A DNA stretch of 64,000 bases from Sneathia vaginalis (GTDB lineage Bacteria > Fusobacteriota > Fusobacteriia > Fusobacteriales > Leptotrichiaceae): contig NZ_CP011280.1 of assembly GCF_000973085.1 (NCBI RefSeq), forward strand, positions 1,045,287 through 1,109,286, read 5' to 3'. The notes below the pieces were generated by a model that did no database searches, was not told the origin of the DNA, and saw only the letters and a list, made by a program, of their open reading frames with translations. Positions 1 through 63,990 of this stretch are shown in pieces. A program made the position numbers and the translations under genes. Position 1 is the stretch's first letter. Each line of letters begins with the position of its first letter.

Positions 1-400
1 GCATTCACATTCGCTTTACCTTTTAGTGTTGCATTATTTGATAAATCTAAATCATTTACTAGCTTTTCTTTATTGAATGCTAATGTATATTTACTTTTAT
101 CATTTGTATCCTTAGTTGCTGTAATATATGTATCTCCTGCTACAGTTATATCTGATAATTTTTTGTTTAATTCGGTATATACTTTTCCTCCTGTAACTAA
201 TCCTGTATTACCATCAGCAATTTCTCCATTACCTAGTTTAGTTTGCCATGTAGTTATGTCTATATTATCCGCATTCGCATTCGCTTTACCTTTCAATGTT
301 GTATTATTTGATAAATCTAGATCTTTTGCCAACTCATCTTTATTGAATGTTAAGGTATATTTCTTACCTGTACCACTTACTGATATATAGTTATTTGCAC
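1..400 (-). repeat. About 270-bp tandem repeat inside the adhesin gene
   Basis: The segment beginning at position 1 reappears, diverged, at about 271 (the same GCATTC..TTCGCTTTACC start, then the same TTATTTGATAAATCTA core). The spacing of 270 bp equals 90 codons, so the repeat keeps the reading frame and encodes stalk modules (KANANADNID, NKEKLVNDLDLSNN versus NKDELAKDLDLSNN). The array probably continues beyond the left edge. Such repeats allow adhesin length variation by recombination. Confidence 0.7.
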
Positions 401-1448
401 TTTTTACATCTACATCTTCTGATTTTAAGTATTTGCTTAATTCTTCTTTTTTAGCATAATCATCTAATTGTTCAACATTAACTGCATCTGTTTTATCTGT
501 ACCTTTTGCAACAAATTTTAATTTTCTTTGTTTTTTATCATTACCAAATGATACAGCATCTTTTACTGCTGTACTTTTATCTCCAAACACTATTGCATTA
601 CTAATACCATCTATTGTTACATTACTACCTAAAACAATATTTTTTTCTACTTTTTTCTTGTCTGTACCTATTATATTGTTCGAACCAAATGATATATTTT
701 CATCTCCATATACCTTATTCTTATTTCCAAATATTTCATTTTCATTATATTTAGCTTTTGGAGTTTGAGGGACAAATTTTCCACTTCCATGTTCTGTTCC
801 ACTTGAAGTTAGTGTTTCTGAATATACCTTATTATCATTCCCAAACACTAAATTCCCCTTAATAGTTTTTTCTTCAGTCCCAACCTTATTATTATTTCCA
901 TGCACTTGATTTGAATCACCATACACTTCATTTTTATCACCTAATGAATAAGTTTTATCACCTTTTGTATATGACTTGTCACCTATTGTAAAGGTATTTT
1001 TTCCTAATGTTGTTGTTTCGTTACCTATAGCGTAGCTATTATTACCTCCATCTGGAACTATACCTAATAGTTTATTTTCTTCCTTTGTTATTTCTAATTC
1101 TTTTTCAGAAATTTTAATTCTTAATTCTGCTTGTTTTTCTGTATCAGTTGTATTTCTTAATTCTTTTTCTAAATCTTTTTTTTGGTCATTTAATTCCTTT
1201 AATTTTCCGAGAATTTCCTTTATTTTATCTACATCTTTTCCATCTTTACTTCCGACTATTGAATTATCACCAAATACATATCCATTTTTTGCAAAACTAT
1301 TTCTACCTAGTGCATTACTTTTAATAATATAGTCCCCTTGTGCGGACATTGAAAAACTCCCAGTAATCATAAACAAAATTATTAGTGCTCTATTTACTGT
1401 AATCTTCTTTTTCAAACTAGACTTGACATATTTTTCGATATTTTTCAT
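1..1448 (-). CDS. YadA-like trimeric autotransporter adhesin, N-terminal part (runs off the left edge)
   Basis: Surface adhesin of the type V secretion (trimeric autotransporter) class, partial: 482 codons are visible and the C-terminal anchor lies outside the window. It starts at ATG 1446-1448 behind an AGGGGG ribosome site. Residues 1-36 form an extended signal peptide (basic start, then hydrophobic core ALIILFMITGSFSMSAQ). A YadA-head-like region of short GNxN / GDxN repeats follows (for example GNNNKVG, GDSNQVHGNNNKV), interrupted at about residues 65-120 by a charged coiled coil. The left part is stalk sequence with KANANADNID-type repeats of about 90 residues. Family and secretion mode are clear; the ligand cannot be told. 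The promoter contains a G tract likely to switch expression (separate entry). Confidence 0.85.
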   Translation of the reverse strand, partial: MKNIEKYVKSSLKKKITVNRALIILFMITGSFSMSAQGDYIIKSNALGRNSFAKNGYVFGDNSIVGSKDGKDVDKIKEILGKLKELNDQKKDLEKELRNTTDTEKQAELRIKISEKELEITKEENKLLGIVPDGGNNSYAIGNETTTLGKNTFTIGDKSYTKGDKTYSLGDKNEVYGDSNQVHGNNNKVGTEEKTIKGNLVFGNDNKVYSETLTSSGTEHGSGKFVPQTPKAKYNENEIFGNKNKVYGDENISFGSNNIIGTDKKKVEKNIVLGSNVTIDGISNAIVFGDKSTAVKDAVSFGNDKKQRKLKFVAKGTDKTDAVNVEQLDDYAKKEELSKYLKSEDVDVKSANNYISVSGTGKKYTLTFNKDELAKDLDLSNNTTLKGKANANADNIDITTWQTKLGNGEIADGNTGLVTGGKVYTELNKKLSDITVAGDTYITATKDTNDKSKYTLAFNKEKLVNDLDLSNNATLKGKANVN

Positions 1449-1490
1449 TTTTTACCCCCTATTTTTTTAAACACATATTTACCGAGTCTA

Positions 1491-1526
1491 ATAGTATCCT
1501 ACCCCCCCCCCACAATGTTTTGTCAA
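1491..1526 (-). promoter_or_regulatory. Adhesin promoter with a 10-base poly-G (poly-C on +) tract in the -35/-10 spacer
   Basis: On the minus strand a consensus -35 TTGACA lies at 1526-1521. It is followed by A/T-rich spacer, ten consecutive G (1511-1502) and then TAGGATACTAT, which offers weak -10 hexamers (TAGGAT at 1501-1496, 19-bp spacer; GATACT at 1498-1493, 22-bp spacer). A tract of identical bases inside the spacer changes promoter geometry when it slips. The hexamers are read directly; which -10 is used and whether the tract varies are inference. Confidence 0.6.
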
Positions 1527-1536
1527 GTATTTTCGC

Positions 1537-1564
1537 AAAAAAAAAATGACCATTTTGGTCATTT
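1537..1564 (-). terminator. Rho-independent terminator of nrdFIE
   Basis: The stem AAATGACC/GGTCATTT (1544-1551 with 1557-1564) is followed on the minus strand by an unbroken T run (A run 1537-1546 on +). It lies 7 bases after the nrdE stop codon. Confidence 0.85.
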
Positions 1565-1570
1565 CCCTCT

Positions 1571-3700
1571 CTATATCACACAACTTGTGCAAGTGTGGTC
1601 TTCACTTCCTTCCAATATATCCTGTCTTATTCTCAAATAATATATTGATGGACACTTCTTACTAAACGCTCTAATATATGCCTTATTTAAATCTCTTGTT
1701 GTTGCCTTATCTGTCATGAATAGAGTTAATGAAATTGCTTGGTCAACATGTTTTGCTGCAGCTGCTGCTACATCTATTATCCATTCTGATCCTATTTCAT
1801 ACGCCCCTTTTTCATAGTACTTATAGTTCTTATCATCTATCATATATGCAGGTACATATACTCTTCCTAACTTACCTTCTTTTCTAACTTCTATTGGTGA
1901 TACAACTGGTTGTAAGCTTGGAGTACATGATGATACATAACTAATTGATCCTGTTGGTGCAACTGCTAATAGGTGGGCATTAGCAAGTCCAGATTCCTTA
2001 ATATCTTTTGCTAATTTTATCCAATCTTCTTTTGTTGGAAGTTTTAACATATATTTTTCTAATAAGTTCTTTACTTTTTCACTGCTTATTGTAAATTCAT
2101 GTTCTGTATACTTTTTGAAATATTCTCCTGTAGCATATTCACTATCCTCAAATCCTTCAAATACTCCTACATTTTTTGCCAGCTTATTTGACGCCTTAAA
2201 TGCATAATATGCTAGAGTATAGAAGAAAGCATCAGTAAAGTCTACTGCATCATTTGATGCATAATATATTTCATTTGTTGCTAAAAAGCCATGTAAATTC
2301 ATTGCACCTAGTCCAACAGCATGATTTTTTTCATTACCCTTACGTATACTTGGTGCACAGTCTATATCCGTTAATCTTGAAACACTATCAAGACTTACAA
2401 TACAAGTATCTATTATCTTCTCCATATCGCAAGCGTTTTCCATCATCTTAGCAATATTAATAGATCCTAAGTTACAACAAACATCTTCTCCAATATTTTC
2501 AAAACTCAAGTCTTGTTTAAAGGTACTAATCGTATTAACTTGTGCTATTTCAGAACACAAATTAGACATTACTATTCTTCCTTTTTTCTTTTGAGGATTT
2601 CTCATATTTACTGTGTCATCGAATAATATATATGGATATCCTGATTCAAAATGCAATTCTGCTATCGTTTGGAATAGCTTTCTTGCACTAATATATGTCT
2701 TTTTGATTCTATCATCTTTTAGTAGGTTATAGTACTCCTTAGTTATACTAATATCGCTCATAGGTACTCCATACACTCTTTGTATGTCATATGGTGAAAA
2801 AAGTGCCATATCTTCATTGTTTTTTGCTAAGGTAAATGTAATATCTGGTATAACTAAACCTAGGGCTAGTGACTTTATTCTAATCTTTTCATCTGCGTTT
2901 TCTCTCTTAGTATCAAGGAAAGTCATAACTTCTGGATGGTGTACATTAAGATATACAGCCCCTGCTCCTTGACGTTGACCTAATTGATTAGCGTATGAGA
3001 AGCTATCTTCTAATAACTTCATAACTGGCACTATACCTGTGCATTGATTTTGTATTTTCTTAATAGGAGCTCCAAATTCTCTTAAATTTGTTAAACATAA
3101 CGCAACTCCACCACCACGTTTTGATAATTGAAGGCTTGTTGATATTGCCCTTGAGATTGACTCCATATTATCTTCAACTCTTACTAGATAACAAGATACA
3201 TATTCACCACGTTTTTTCTTACCTGCATTTAAGAATGTAGGTGTTGCTGGTTGAAATATACCTTTTAGCATTGCATCTAATATATCATATGCACTTTTAA
3301 TATTACCTTTTGCTAATAATAGGGCGTTCATAGATACTCTATCAGTATATTCTTCAAGATAATATTTACCATCAAAGCTTTTTAAACAGTATGAGTTATA
3401 GAACTTATACGCACCCATAAAATTTAAAAATTTAAAGTTATACTCCTTAGCTTTTTTGAATAGATCTATTACATCTTTTCTATCATACTTATCTAATACT
3501 TCTTCATCATAGTAGTCATTTTCTATTAAATACCCTATTTTTTCTTCTATGCTAGAAAACTTTTTTGTATTAGGTTCTACGTGTTCTTTAAAATACATAT
3601 CAACTGCCTGTTTATCAGCATAAAAATTATGCGTATTATCTTGATTTTGTATCTTTGTAACTGCATTTAACGATATATACTCTTGTGACAAATCTTTCAT
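1571..3700 (-). CDS. nrdE: Class I ribonucleotide reductase, large (catalytic) subunit NrdE
   Basis: Reduces ribonucleoside diphosphates to deoxyribonucleotides in the cytoplasm, using a radical delivered by NrdF. The 709 residues are typical of NrdE, which lacks the long N-terminal ATP cone of NrdA. Catalytic features are visible: Cys170 (YVSCYLVRVEDN), the radical-site motif NLCSEI with Cys382 and Glu384, Cys409 before NLGSIN, and the C-terminal redox pair CTSC at 704-707 for re-reduction by a glutaredoxin-like protein or thioredoxin. It is the last gene of nrdF-nrdI-nrdE; its ATG shares one base with the nrdI TAA stop (TAATG), so the two are translationally coupled. Its partner NrdF is of the metal-free type (see nrdF), so this subunit presumably works with a DOPA-radical small subunit. 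Confidence 0.97.
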   Translation of the reverse strand: MKDLSQEYISLNAVTKIQNQDNTHNFYADKQAVDMYFKEHVEPNTKKFSSIEEKIGYLIENDYYDEEVLDKYDRKDVIDLFKKAKEYNFKFLNFMGAYKFYNSYCLKSFDGKYYLEEYTDRVSMNALLLAKGNIKSAYDILDAMLKGIFQPATPTFLNAGKKKRGEYVSCYLVRVEDNMESISRAISTSLQLSKRGGGVALCLTNLREFGAPIKKIQNQCTGIVPVMKLLEDSFSYANQLGQRQGAGAVYLNVHHPEVMTFLDTKRENADEKIRIKSLALGLVIPDITFTLAKNNEDMALFSPYDIQRVYGVPMSDISITKEYYNLLKDDRIKKTYISARKLFQTIAELHFESGYPYILFDDTVNMRNPQKKKGRIVMSNLCSEIAQVNTISTFKQDLSFENIGEDVCCNLGSINIAKMMENACDMEKIIDTCIVSLDSVSRLTDIDCAPSIRKGNEKNHAVGLGAMNLHGFLATNEIYYASNDAVDFTDAFFYTLAYYAFKASNKLAKNVGVFEGFEDSEYATGEYFKKYTEHEFTISSEKVKNLLEKYMLKLPTKEDWIKLAKDIKESGLANAHLLAVAPTGSISYVSSCTPSLQPVVSPIEVRKEGKLGRVYVPAYMIDDKNYKYYEKGAYEIGSEWIIDVAAAAAKHVDQAISLTLFMTDKATTRDLNKAYIRAFSKKCPSIYYLRIRQDILEGSEDHTCTSCVI

Positions 3701-50521: not shown

Positions 50522-50578
50522 TTGACAAATTTTTGTTTGAATTACACTTTTTTTTTTTTTTTTTTTTAAGAGTAAAAT
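50522..50578 (+). promoter_or_regulatory. Upstream region of the YadA-anchor gene with a T20 tract
   Basis: TTGACA (50522-50527) is followed by TTGAAT/TTACAC hexamers, then exactly 20 T (50548-50567), AAGAG and TAAAAT (50573-50578), a plausible -10. The T tract lies just upstream of the -10, similar to the elements at 55.58 and 63.86 kb. The remaining 50385-50520 stretch between the divergent genes shows nothing else recognisable. Confidence 0.5.
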
Positions 50579-50608: not shown

Positions 50609-51400
50609 ATGAAAAAAGCAACAATAAGTTTAATATTTTTAATTGCAAGTAGTTTGACATTCACTAATCAATTACTTAATCCCAAACATCAATCAGGTAG
50701 TTATATAATAAATAATGATGTAGATACAAATAATCCTGCAAAATGGTCTCCATACCCTAGCAAAGCTGGACCACAACGACCAGTTACTATTGATACAACA
50801 GAAGCAGATAAAATAAGAAATGAAATAAAAAATAAAATTGAAAGTCTTGTAAAAAATGATAATGATAAGAGAGATATTGAAAATGCTCTTGAAATTGATA
50901 GCACAGATAATTTAAATAAATTAAAAAAAGCAAAAGAATATGCAGATATTCTATTTGAAGATTATGATAACAACATTCATTATCTTCGTAATATCTCTTT
51001 TCAACTTGATAATGATGATTTTGTGTATTTCATTAATCGTAAAAAAAGCATTGACCAAAAAATCGACACATTATCTAAAACTGCCAATCACGCTTTAGAT
51101 GGTGTTTCATTAGCTGTTGCTATGGCTAATTTACCTACAGTATCAAGTGAATACAATCATAATATTTCTGCTTCATATGGTACTTATGCTGGTTCTCATT
51201 CATTTGCTTTAGGTCTTAGTGGACATATTGCTAATGATAGATTAAGTTACAAGCTATCTGGTGCTGTTAATACTAAAGGTAATCTTGCATTCGGTGTTGG
51301 AGTTGGTGTTAATCTTGGTAAGAAGAATCAATCTAATAAAGAATTACTTGATAGAATAGAAAAATTAGAAAATTTAGTTAAACAATTACAAAACAAATAA
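50609..51400 (+). CDS. Small YadA-anchor trimeric autotransporter protein
   Basis: A 263-residue outer-membrane protein. Signal peptide MKKATISLIFLIASSLTFTN, a short proline/asparagine linker, a charged coiled coil (about 65-155: EADKIRNEIKNKIESLVKN and onward), then a YadA-type membrane anchor (ALDGVSLAVAMANLPT, SASYGTYAGSHSFALGLSG, LSYKLSGAVNTKGNLAFGVGVGVNL). With no head, it is a minimal passenger. Unusually, the barrel is followed by a 25-residue coiled-coil tail (KELLDRIEKLENLVKQLQNK) rather than ending at the last strand. Ribosome site AAAAGGAG. Confidence 0.85.
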   Translation: MKKATISLIFLIASSLTFTNQLLNPKHQSGSYIINNDVDTNNPAKWSPYPSKAGPQRPVTIDTTEADKIRNEIKNKIESLVKNDNDKRDIENALEIDSTDNLNKLKKAKEYADILFEDYDNNIHYLRNISFQLDNDDFVYFINRKKSIDQKIDTLSKTANHALDGVSLAVAMANLPTVSSEYNHNISASYGTYAGSHSFALGLSGHIANDRLSYKLSGAVNTKGNLAFGVGVGVNLGKKNQSNKELLDRIEKLENLVKQLQNK

Positions 51401-55485: not shown

Positions 55486-55720
55486 AAAAGTACTTAATTC
55501 GATTTTTAAATATATAATGCATTAAACACGCTAAGTTCGATTGTGGTTAAAAAATAAACTTTTATTTATTTTCAAACCACTTTTTTTTTTTTTTTTTTAG
55601 ACTAAAATATACTTGACTACTATAGAAATAATTAAAAAATTACTTTTTAAAAAGGAAGAAAAATTATAGAAAAAAACAATATTATTAGCAAGCGTGATTG
55701 CATCAATGACTACATTAGCA
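55470..55720 (+). repeat. Direct repeat, copy A (rep 3' end to OMP signal peptide)
   Basis: From about TTCAAAGTTAAAAAAGT through AACCAC, an 18-T tract, TAAAATATACTTGACTACTATAG and AAAAAGG to the coding start of the beta-barrel gene, the sequence matches copy B at about 63745-63990, in the same orientation 8.3 kb apart. Differences are scattered substitutions plus T-tract length (18 versus 15). The repeat includes a terminator hairpin, promoter-like elements and the signal-peptide codons. Confidence 0.85.
55543..55598 (+). terminator. Terminator-like hairpin with T18 tract, upstream of the OMP gene
   Basis: Outer stem GTGGTT/AACCAC with inner stem AAAATAAA/TTTATTTT (55543-55580), then 18 T (55581-55598). 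In copy B the inner stem is GAAATAAA/TTTATTTC, a compensatory A-T to G-C change, which supports a real RNA hairpin. It probably terminates phoU/rep transcription. The following TAAAAT (55603-55608) and TTGACT are candidate promoter parts of the OMP gene. Confidence 0.75.
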
Positions 55721-57820
55721 GTAGAATCACCAAAAGGATTTGTTGAAGGTACTGCTAAAGGTGGAGTAACATTTAGACAAAATGTAAGTAATGAAACTAA
55801 AATATCTGGTGATGTAGAAGAATTATCAGTTAAAGGTGAAGTAAAAGTTAATAGATTTACTTTAGGTGCTGTATTAGCTAACAAGGATCTTAAAGGTATA
55901 TCAAAAGAAAATCCAATAACAACTGAAAAATATACTGATAATCTATTAGATCATTCAAGTGTATATGCTAAATATGAATTACCAGAATTTTCTGGAATTA
56001 AATCATATGTAAAAGGAACATTAAATCCTAAAGCTCCAACTGAAGATGGAAAACATAACTTCAAAAAAGGTAATGTTGAATTAGAAGGACAATTAGCTCA
56101 CAGCTTCAGTAATGGTGCAGAAGTATCATTAACTTCAAAGACTAAATTCCCATTTGAAAAGAAAGATGGAGAATATGGTAAAGGTGTAGAATCAGAACAC
56201 GTATTAAAAGTAGCTGCTAAAAAATTAAATAAATTTGAAGACTTAGAAGCAAGCTTAAAATTAAATCATACATACGCAAAAGAAGAAGCATTTAAGTTTG
56301 TTGATCTTTCAGCAAAAGGAACATATGCAGGATTAAAAGATACTAAGTTAACAGGTAAAGCAAACTTCAGATACCAAGTAAATGGAACATCAGATGTTAA
56401 AGACCTATTAACAGATGGACAAATCAAATTAAATAAAGATGCATATGCACACTCTTATGAATTAGATGGTAAATACACAGGAGTAAAAGACCTAGAATTA
56501 ACAGCAGGAGCATTCGTACAACACGTACACTATGCAAATGCAGAATTAGGAGACTATGTTGCAAATCCATTTGAATACCTATATGCTCAAAGCTTAATTT
56601 CAAATGATAAAGACTTCTTCAAACACCATGCTGAAAAAATAGAAGCAGCTAAAAAAGAATTTGAAAAAGCTCAAGAAACTATAAAGAATACATCTAAAGA
56701 AGTTAAAGATGAATATCAAAAAAATGTGGATCTTTACGAAAAATTAGTAAGTGTAGAAACTAATTATTTAGATAATGTAGTTAAAAAAGCTACTGATGAA
56801 AAAAACAAATTAACAGGTGCTGAAAAAACTACTGCAGACCAATCATACAATGATCAAAAGAAGTTATATGAACTAGAAGATAAAATTGCTAAATTAAAAA
56901 ATTTAAAAGATAATTATGAAAAAATTTATAATAATGCAAAGGCAGAAGTTAAGAATTCAGAATTTAAAAACTCTAAATTTAAAGAATTTACTGACGAAAT
57001 TAGTAAATTAACTGATGAATATAATAAATTAGATGAAAAATTAAGTAATTTAGAAAATGCTGGAACAATTTTAGCAGATGCTGAATCTGATAAAAAAGAT
57101 TTTGATACTGCAAAAAAAGAAAACGATAAAAACGATATGAAAAACGTACTTGGTGATTTAGCTTTTGTTAAACAAGCTGATGGAACATATTTAGATGTTA
57201 GTGACGATTCTTATGATGGCGAATATGGTGATAATGTAATATATGCAAATGAGCTATTTGATAAAATTAAAAATTCAGAATATGGTAATGCGCTAAAAAT
57301 TGTAAATGCAGTTAATGATTTCTCAATCAGAGAAAAAGCATATAAACTTGAACTTGAAAGATACAAAGGTTTAAAAGCAAAATTAGACCTAGTTAACTTT
57401 GGATTCAAATTAGGAGCTAAATATACTGGTGTTAAGAACTTAACATTAACTGCTGATGGTGTATTTGGTGGAAGACATCACTCTGCATATGATCAATTAC
57501 TTAAATTCCCTGCATACACAACTGGATATGTTAAATTACATGCTGGTGCTAAATATGACTTCAAGTTATTAAATGATAAATTAGTTGTAAGCCCAGAAGG
57601 TAATGTAACTGCTAAATTTACTGATATATATGCTGGAATATGCAATCCAAGCTTAGTATTAGCACCAAAGGTTTCTGTATCATACAAACCAATGGATGCA
57701 TTAAAAGTTGCAGGATCAGTTGAATTACCAATTAACTTTGGATTAAATACATTAGGTGATTTCGGTTACCAAAGCACAAGCATTAAAGGTGCTTTAAACA
57801 TGAAATATGAATGGAAATAA
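55694..57820 (+). CDS. Large outer-membrane beta-barrel protein with helical insertion; start codon damaged
   Basis: The frame encodes 708 residues from GTG 55694. By comparison with the paralogue at 63939, the true start should be ATG near 55666, giving MKKTILLASVIASMTTLAVE, but an extra A makes it ATAG and puts an in-frame TAG at 55667. Either the gene is switched off or recently inactivated, GTG or a rare ATA start is used, or there is a sequencing error. The rest is intact: strands with alternating hydrophobics (about 25-300), a charged coiled-coil block (about 305-565; KKEFEKAQETIKNTSKEV, LYELEDKIAKLKNLK), then more strands ending in the aromatic ALNMKYEWK typical of outer-membrane barrels. 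Family not recognised beyond a porin-like architecture. Confidence 0.75.
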   Translation: MIASMTTLAVESPKGFVEGTAKGGVTFRQNVSNETKISGDVEELSVKGEVKVNRFTLGAVLANKDLKGISKENPITTEKYTDNLLDHSSVYAKYELPEFSGIKSYVKGTLNPKAPTEDGKHNFKKGNVELEGQLAHSFSNGAEVSLTSKTKFPFEKKDGEYGKGVESEHVLKVAAKKLNKFEDLEASLKLNHTYAKEEAFKFVDLSAKGTYAGLKDTKLTGKANFRYQVNGTSDVKDLLTDGQIKLNKDAYAHSYELDGKYTGVKDLELTAGAFVQHVHYANAELGDYVANPFEYLYAQSLISNDKDFFKHHAEKIEAAKKEFEKAQETIKNTSKEVKDEYQKNVDLYEKLVSVETNYLDNVVKKATDEKNKLTGAEKTTADQSYNDQKKLYELEDKIAKLKNLKDNYEKIYNNAKAEVKNSEFKNSKFKEFTDEISKLTDEYNKLDEKLSNLENAGTILADAESDKKDFDTAKKENDKNDMKNVLGDLAFVKQADGTYLDVSDDSYDGEYGDNVIYANELFDKIKNSEYGNALKIVNAVNDFSIREKAYKLELERYKGLKAKLDLVNFGFKLGAKYTGVKNLTLTADGVFGGRHHSAYDQLLKFPAYTTGYVKLHAGAKYDFKLLNDKLVVSPEGNVTAKFTDIYAGICNPSLVLAPKVSVSYKPMDALKVAGSVELPINFGLNTLGDFGYQSTSIKGALNMKYEWK

Positions 57821-63765: not shown

Positions 63766-63990
63766 AAAAGTGCTTAATTCGATTTGTGAATATATAATAC
63801 ATTAAATTCGTTAAGTTTGATTGTGGTTAAGAAATAAACTTTTATTTATTTCCAAACCACTTTTTTTTTTTTTTTAGCTAAAATATACTTGACTACTATA
63901 GAAATATTAAAAAAATCTTTTTAAAAAGGAGAAAAATTATGAAAAAGACATTATTACTAACTAGCTTAGTTGCATCAATGGTTGCAATAG
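63745..63990 (+). repeat. Direct repeat, copy B (rep 3' end to OMP signal peptide)
   Basis: Partner of the repeat at 55470-55720, in the same orientation. It contains the last codons and stop of rep, the hairpin, the 15-T tract, TAAAATATACTTGACTACTATAG, AAAAAGGAG and the start of the next beta-barrel gene. In this copy the ATG is intact. Confidence 0.85.
63823..63875 (+). terminator. Terminator of rep with T15 tract
   Basis: Outer stem GTGGTT/AACCAC with inner stem GAAATAAA/TTTATTTC (63823-63860), followed by 15 T (63861-63875). See the covarying copy at 55543. Confidence 0.8.

Follow-up and report, generated by a model that had tools for sequence, protein, structure and literature searches.

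Does the run of ten G residues in the promoter of a large adhesin gene of Sneathia vaginalis serve as a switch of that gene, and does it stand alone in the genome? The run was located in a stretch of 64,000 nucleotides, referred to here as the window, which covers positions 1045287-1109286 of a single-contig genome of 1,330,224 bases. Features of the window are given in window coordinates, and the loci of the genome-wide census are given in contig positions.

The G10 promoter and the adhesin gene

The following features were assigned at the locus.

1521-1526, minus strand: -35 element TTGACA, 6/6 to the consensus
1512-1520, minus strand: AAACATTGT, nine bases between the -35 element and the G tract, by sequence reading
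1502-1511, minus strand: G10 tract in the promoter spacer, by sequence reading and run census
1496-1501, minus strand: -10 element TAGGAT abutting the G tract, spacer 19, weak (4/6 to the consensus)
1491-1496, minus strand: alternative weak -10 element TACTAT, spacer 24, overlapping TAGGAT by one base
1454-1460, minus strand: ribosome-binding-like AGGGGGT 5' of the start codon, read by eye
1446-1448, minus strand: start codon of the adhesin, by sequence reading
3-1448, minus strand: 5' part (482 codons) of the gene of a YadA-type trimeric autotransporter adhesin (TAA), continuing past the window start
1537-1571, minus strand: intrinsic terminator-like hairpin and T run ending nrd (fold -15.2 kcal/mol, z -4.3)
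1571-3700, minus strand: large subunit of ribonucleotide reductase (nrd), the upstream neighbour, from the ORF list and a profile search

The earlier note on this DNA had described a perfect TTGACA, ten G residues and weak -10 hexamers at a spacing of 19 or more. This description was confirmed on the minus strand, where the spacers were 19 and 24. Hence, a homopolymer was present between the -35 and -10 elements of a surface protein gene, as in promoters of the porA type. The promoter was not listed by a simple promoter scan because its spacer of 19 exceeded the limit of 18 used by that scan. The G10 tract was the sole G or C run of at least eight residues in the 64-kb window; three overlapping 8-mer matches were seen against 0.03 expected, and none of 100 shuffles of the window reached three. 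A search for the exact promoter sequence in viral contigs gave no matches.

The gene behind the promoter encodes a YadA-type trimeric autotransporter. When it was followed beyond the window, the full-length protein was found to be 1020 aa, and the C-terminal YadA_anchor domain (PF03895) was matched at residues 920-975 with 34.6 bits (cut-off 22.7). The YadA_stalk matches of 24.6-25.8 bits stayed under the cut-off of 28.4, and a hydrophobic N-terminal stretch was seen by eye only. Since the nrd gene upstream is ended by the terminator-like hairpin, which a simple terminator scan did not list, the adhesin gene is probably transcribed from a promoter of its own, most likely the G10 promoter. When the same locus was compared in the other genome of the genus (G001), the adhesin gene was missing behind nrd; therefore, the G10 tract had no orthologue for comparison.

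Poly-G and poly-T promoters across the genome

The whole S. vaginalis genome (1.33 Mb) contained 13 G-runs of at least eight residues, namely eight G9, four G10 and one G11, with none of exactly eight. Two further runs were G7. Twelve of the 13 long runs were followed directly by the -10-like hexamer of a gene for a surface protein, and 11 of these 12 genes encoded TAAs. The probability of finding at least 12 of 13 runs in non-coding DNA was 3e-11 when a non-coding fraction of 10.8% was assumed. The remaining run (G9, 576604-576612) lay in frame inside a 689-aa ORF, was not part of a promoter and was left out of the supporting count.

The -35 elements of the 12 poly-G promoters were of the TTG type (once TTC) and began 12-15 nt before the run, and the start codon usually followed 17-74 nt after it, with one farther away. 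The ORFs behind these promoters mostly began with signal-peptide-like stretches; the product behind the promoter at 833622 was a protein of 170 aa that matched no Pfam family. An exact TTGACA was found at promoter distance before four G-runs of at least seven residues, including the G7 at 74221, and the reversed pattern was found in no case. The best-scoring -35/-10 pairs had spacers of 15, 15, 16, 16, 17, 18, 18, 18, 19, 19, 19 and 20 (mean 17.5). The values thus straddled 17, the pattern to be expected if the promoters had been sampled in various switch states.

Further, the YadA_anchor profile gave 20 matches in the whole genome, a large TAA repertoire for 1.33 Mb. Eleven of the 20 were in genes with a poly-G promoter, and six were in genes with a T14-T20 promoter (17973, 877170, 1018758, 1096429, 1158287 and 1200980). 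The other three were found at 822189, where the promoter was not located, at 818453, in a 124-aa ORF without a tract, and at 833860, in a remnant with a stop. A long homopolymer was therefore present in the promoter of all 17 TAA genes whose promoter was located, the 124-aa ORF excepted.

The poly-T promoters of the window and the elements associated with them were as follows.

50548-50567, plus strand: T20 5' of TAAAAT in the promoter of another TAA gene
50609-51400, plus strand: 263-aa trimeric autotransporter (YadA_anchor), by profile match
55546-55559, plus strand: shared upstream element GTTAAAAAATAAAC at the T18 promoter
55581-55598, plus strand: T18 before TAAAAT, upstream of an outer-membrane-type ORF at 55706-57820
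63826-63839, plus strand: shared upstream element GTTAAGAAATAAAC at the T15 promoter
63861-63875, plus strand: T15 before TAAAAT; the outer-membrane-type gene that follows is a paralogue and is truncated by the window end

T-runs of at least 13 residues were counted 19 times in the S. vaginalis genome and were found in none of the genomes G002, G020, G030 and G032. Twelve of the 19 were in promoters, six of them before TAA genes and six before one paralogous outer-membrane-type family; most of the others were terminator-like by eye (one, at 882281, lay outside this inspection). No good -35 element was visible in this class, and the tract occupied its place. The six paralogous promoters carried six different tract lengths (T13, 15, 16, 17, 18 and 19), and their flanks were 88-100% identical downstream and 59-95% identical upstream. 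The proteins of the family, five of the six of which were aligned, started with MKKTLLLTSLVASMVAMAGTTGSV or a near variant. They were labelled as putatively of the outer-membrane type on account of a signal-like N-terminus and an apparently beta-rich sequence. Pfam gave a sub-threshold TonB-barrel match in one member as the sole match of the family, and a structure prediction was too poor to be used (mean pLDDT 38.6).

The two tract classes were found to share a motif upstream. In the poly-T class, 11 of 12 promoters had GTTAA (consensus GTTAAaAAATAAAC) at 31-36 nt 5' of the tract, and shuffled upstream sequences gave a mean of 0.36. For the poly-G class the figures were 8 of 12 promoters, a distance of 46-48 nt and a shuffle mean of 0.16. 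These windows were picked after the data had been viewed, and the six paralogues do not count as independent cases. For the six TAA poly-T promoters alone, the motif was found in five against 0.17 in shuffles. Relative to the -10 element, its position was about 50-60 bp upstream in both classes. It was not present at the promoter at 1491-1526 or at the TTGACA-class promoter at 880588. The longer element with at most one mismatch had two matches in the window, both at poly-T promoters of the paralogous family, a count not unusual by chance.

Tract lengths in related genomes

The family also includes Caviibacter, Streptobacillus, Oceanivirga, Leptotrichia and Sebaldella, according to excerpts of two papers (PMC5093955, PMC3535699). 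Four genomes of a same-family genus (g11), which is probably Streptobacillus, contained 2, 40, 27 and 20 G-runs of at least eight residues (total 89). After two double rows had been removed from the count, TTG was found at promoter distance before 2, 36, 25 and 19 of them (82 of 89), and the reversed pattern was recorded 0, 2, 0 and 2 times (total 4). Nearly all -35 elements of these promoters were TTGACA, and most -10 elements were TATAAT or close to it. Ten of the products were scanned; five had YadA head or stalk repeats above the cut-off, one had a classical autotransporter domain and four had no match.

The spacers were analyzed for 81 distinct rows of the 82, of which 76 had an exact TTGACA. 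In these 76 promoters the G number ranged from 8 to 12 and the spacer to the tract end from 15 to 21, and the remainder of the spacer did not compensate for the G number (Spearman -0.06, p 0.59). Spacers of 18-19 were the commonest (46 of 76), so a spacer of 19 need not mark a low state. The earlier note had supposed that a loss of about two G residues would raise expression and, on that ground, that the isolate may be in a low state; since the best tract length or spacing differs among porA, tp0126 and uspA1 (see below), this is a guess.

The tract lengths were compared between orthologous promoters of g11. Ten cross-genome pairs had matching flanks and downstream proteins whose N-terminal 120 residues were 95-100% identical, with 68 of the 89 tracts entering the comparison. 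Seven of the ten pairs differed in G number (11/10, 10/9, 10/11, 10/11, 8/11, 10/9 and 9/11) and three were equal, although length differences between species are no proof of switching within a population. Eight promoter groups underlie the ten pairs, and six of the eight varied. Among all pairs with similar flanks, 28 of 39 differed in G number; homopolymer lengths in draft genomes can be assembly errors. Between S. vaginalis and G001, the related tracts before similar proteins (874080 and L083; 876947 and L092) were both G9, a sign of conservation and not of variation.

In the G001 draft, all ten T-runs of at least 13 residues were located at contig ends (L284-L302) and were not counted in the poly-T class. 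This position indicates that such tracts break assemblies, and surface-gene loci are therefore probably missing from drafts.

At least one TTGACA-polyG-TANNAT promoter was found in 11 of 98 genomes of the phylum, with a concentration in g11. Across the genome collection, TTGACA-N-polyG-TANNAT was matched in at least 116 stretches, and the titles among the matches listed (80) included Clostridia, Bacilli, Saccharibacteria, Spirochaetes, Proteobacteria and others. As a sequence pattern, a single promoter of this kind is widespread, which argues against a claim of something categorically new.

Mechanism, alternatives and known systems

Based on the sequence features above, the G10 tract is very probably a contingency locus within a genome-wide set of phase-variable promoters. 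The earlier note had put forward promoter phase variation of the adhesin. This proposal gained strong support from the common promoter position of 12 of the 13 runs, its repetition in g11 and the length differences between orthologous promoters. We propose that slipped-strand mispairing at replication would add G residues to the G10 tract or remove them from it. A change in G number would alter the distance between TTGACA and the -10 element together with their helical phase, and transcription of the TAA gene would step up or down in a heritable and reversible manner. About 12 poly-G and 12 poly-T promoters would in this way switch most TAAs and the paralogous outer-membrane family independently. 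Slippage as the cause, the effect on transcription and the variation within an S. vaginalis population are what we infer.

It was considered whether the G tract might instead be mainly structural or regulator-binding, acting by axial alignment, as a DNA-shape rheostat or as a protein site, with the -35/-10 spacing being irrelevant. Such a role would agree with the GTTAA motif, found in 8 of the 12 promoters of the poly-G class and in 11 of the 12 of the poly-T class, and with the lack of a visible good -35 element in the poly-T class, where the tract stands in its place. Helicobacter sabA also works by alignment of UP-like elements, as described in an excerpt of PMC4081817. However, GTTAA is lacking at 1491-1526 itself and at 880588, the G10 tract is placed between a perfect -35 and a -10 element, and TTGACA is nearly universal in the g11 promoters, the majority of which have -10 elements at or near TATAAT. 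This explanation was therefore judged unlikely.

A tract that is hypermutable but neutral, with G-runs piling up in non-coding DNA by mutation bias, is far less probable still. Against it, 12 of 13 tracts occupy one place, between the two core elements of surface-gene promoters; in its favour, long homopolymers are generally known to be unstable and to be tolerated mainly outside genes. In the same genome the reversed control gave none against four TTGACA tracts (one of them G7). Additionally, tracts were kept at related promoters of the S. vaginalis genome and G001; an excerpt of PMC13393775 gives an average protein identity of 71% for the two Sneathia species, a value that applies if G001 is the second species. 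Marginally the least probable of all is that the count of ten G is an assembly or sequencing artefact, the real tract being shorter, longer or mixed. The S. vaginalis genome was assembled in one contig, its 13 tracts were confined to 9-11 residues, and the same architecture was found in many separately sequenced genomes. Homopolymers are error-prone, and the ten T-runs at contig ends of G001 speak for such an artefact, but a mixed tract would itself count as evidence of phase variation.

Beyond a contingency locus at G10, a wider proposal can be made, for and against which we find the balance even. A Sneathia-like phasome would be derived from one ancestral promoter type, in which a conserved GTTAAAAAATAAAC located about 50-60 bp 5' of the -10 element is combined with an exchangeable poly-G tract in the spacer or a poly-T tract in the -35 place. 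Nearly every intact TAA and the outer-membrane family would switch independently, resulting in combinatorial surface variation, and the Streptobacillus-like relatives would use poly-G only, with up to 36 promoters per genome.

UspA1 of Moraxella catarrhalis is a trimeric autotransporter. Its gene resembles the present locus in that a poly-G tract of G8-G12 lies upstream of a YadA-type adhesin and controls transcription; according to an excerpt of PMC7302503, the high state was at G10 or at G11-12 depending on the strain, which its authors ascribed to one flanking base. One gene is concerned there, in contrast to at least 11 TAA genes in S. vaginalis. In Neisseria meningitidis porA, a G-run of 9-11 residues likewise lies between the -35 and -10 elements that drive a surface protein, and one-base steps change the level, with expression in the order 11G > 10G > 9G (excerpt of PMC3639595). 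porA is a single porin gene, whereas S. vaginalis, of another phylum, has a set of promoters, mostly of TAAs. Treponema pallidum tp0126, an OmpW homologue, also has poly-G between -35 and -10, with a spacing of 17 nt being the best as quoted in an excerpt of PMC7864442, but it belongs to a spirochaete and to another gene class.

In Helicobacter pylori sabA, a T-tract adjoins the core promoter and an A-rich element lies upstream (excerpt of PMC4081817). The T13-T20 tracts of S. vaginalis, placed 5' of TAAAAT in promoters of adhesin and outer-membrane-type genes, are putatively of a similar kind. The tract stands beside the -35 element in sabA, whereas in S. vaginalis it seems to replace that element, with the conserved GTTAAAAAATAAAC 31-36 nt upstream. 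By analogy, the poly-T class fits a sabA-like model, and slippage of the G tract probably alters the -35/-10 distance as in porA and tp0126, and as it probably does in uspA1. The switch mechanism is already known from porA, tp0126, uspA1 and sabA.

The literature search covered titles and abstract starts of openly available papers. Phase variation was not found there for Sneathia or Streptobacillus moniliformis, nor was anything relevant on switching by promoter homopolymers in Fusobacteria. Two broader searches likewise gave no paper on these genera among the best 20 and 12 matches. Text searches of the Sneathia genome papers PMC3535699 and PMC13393775 found no mention of phase variation, and that of PMC13393775 none of homopolymers or promoters. 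What appears to be unreported in the literature searched is the occurrence in this phylum, the number of promoters involved and the upstream element common to both tract classes.

If the proposed switching takes place, gene presence alone would not tell which adhesins a vaginal or invasive isolate carries, and cells within a single strain could differ from each other in more than 20 surface proteins. Typing, the choice of antigens and adhesion experiments would be affected in organisms associated with preterm birth or, for the sister genus, with rat-bite fever (the names of the organisms were inferred). Tract length would be a readable state, directly measurable in existing deep-sequencing data.

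Several minor observations were made on genes behind or around the tracts. In the Streptobacillus-like genomes, proteins of about 165-220 aa with GPRYR or GP(R/K)YR and signal-like N-termini were repeatedly found behind poly-G promoters, for example L036, L040, L064, L243, L251 and others in G030; the two that were tested, L036 and L251, had no Pfam match. The 689-aa ORF with the in-frame G9 weakly matched a family of phage proteins of unknown function, and a coding-sequence switch in a prophage-like gene is possible. Three TAA genes with poly-G promoters had interrupted frames. At 410635 (410635-413248) and 1018419 (1018419-1015941) the N-terminal frame differed from the frame bearing the anchor, and at 198499 a short first frame followed the start-like ATG; decay or a second layer of switching are suggested as alternatives.
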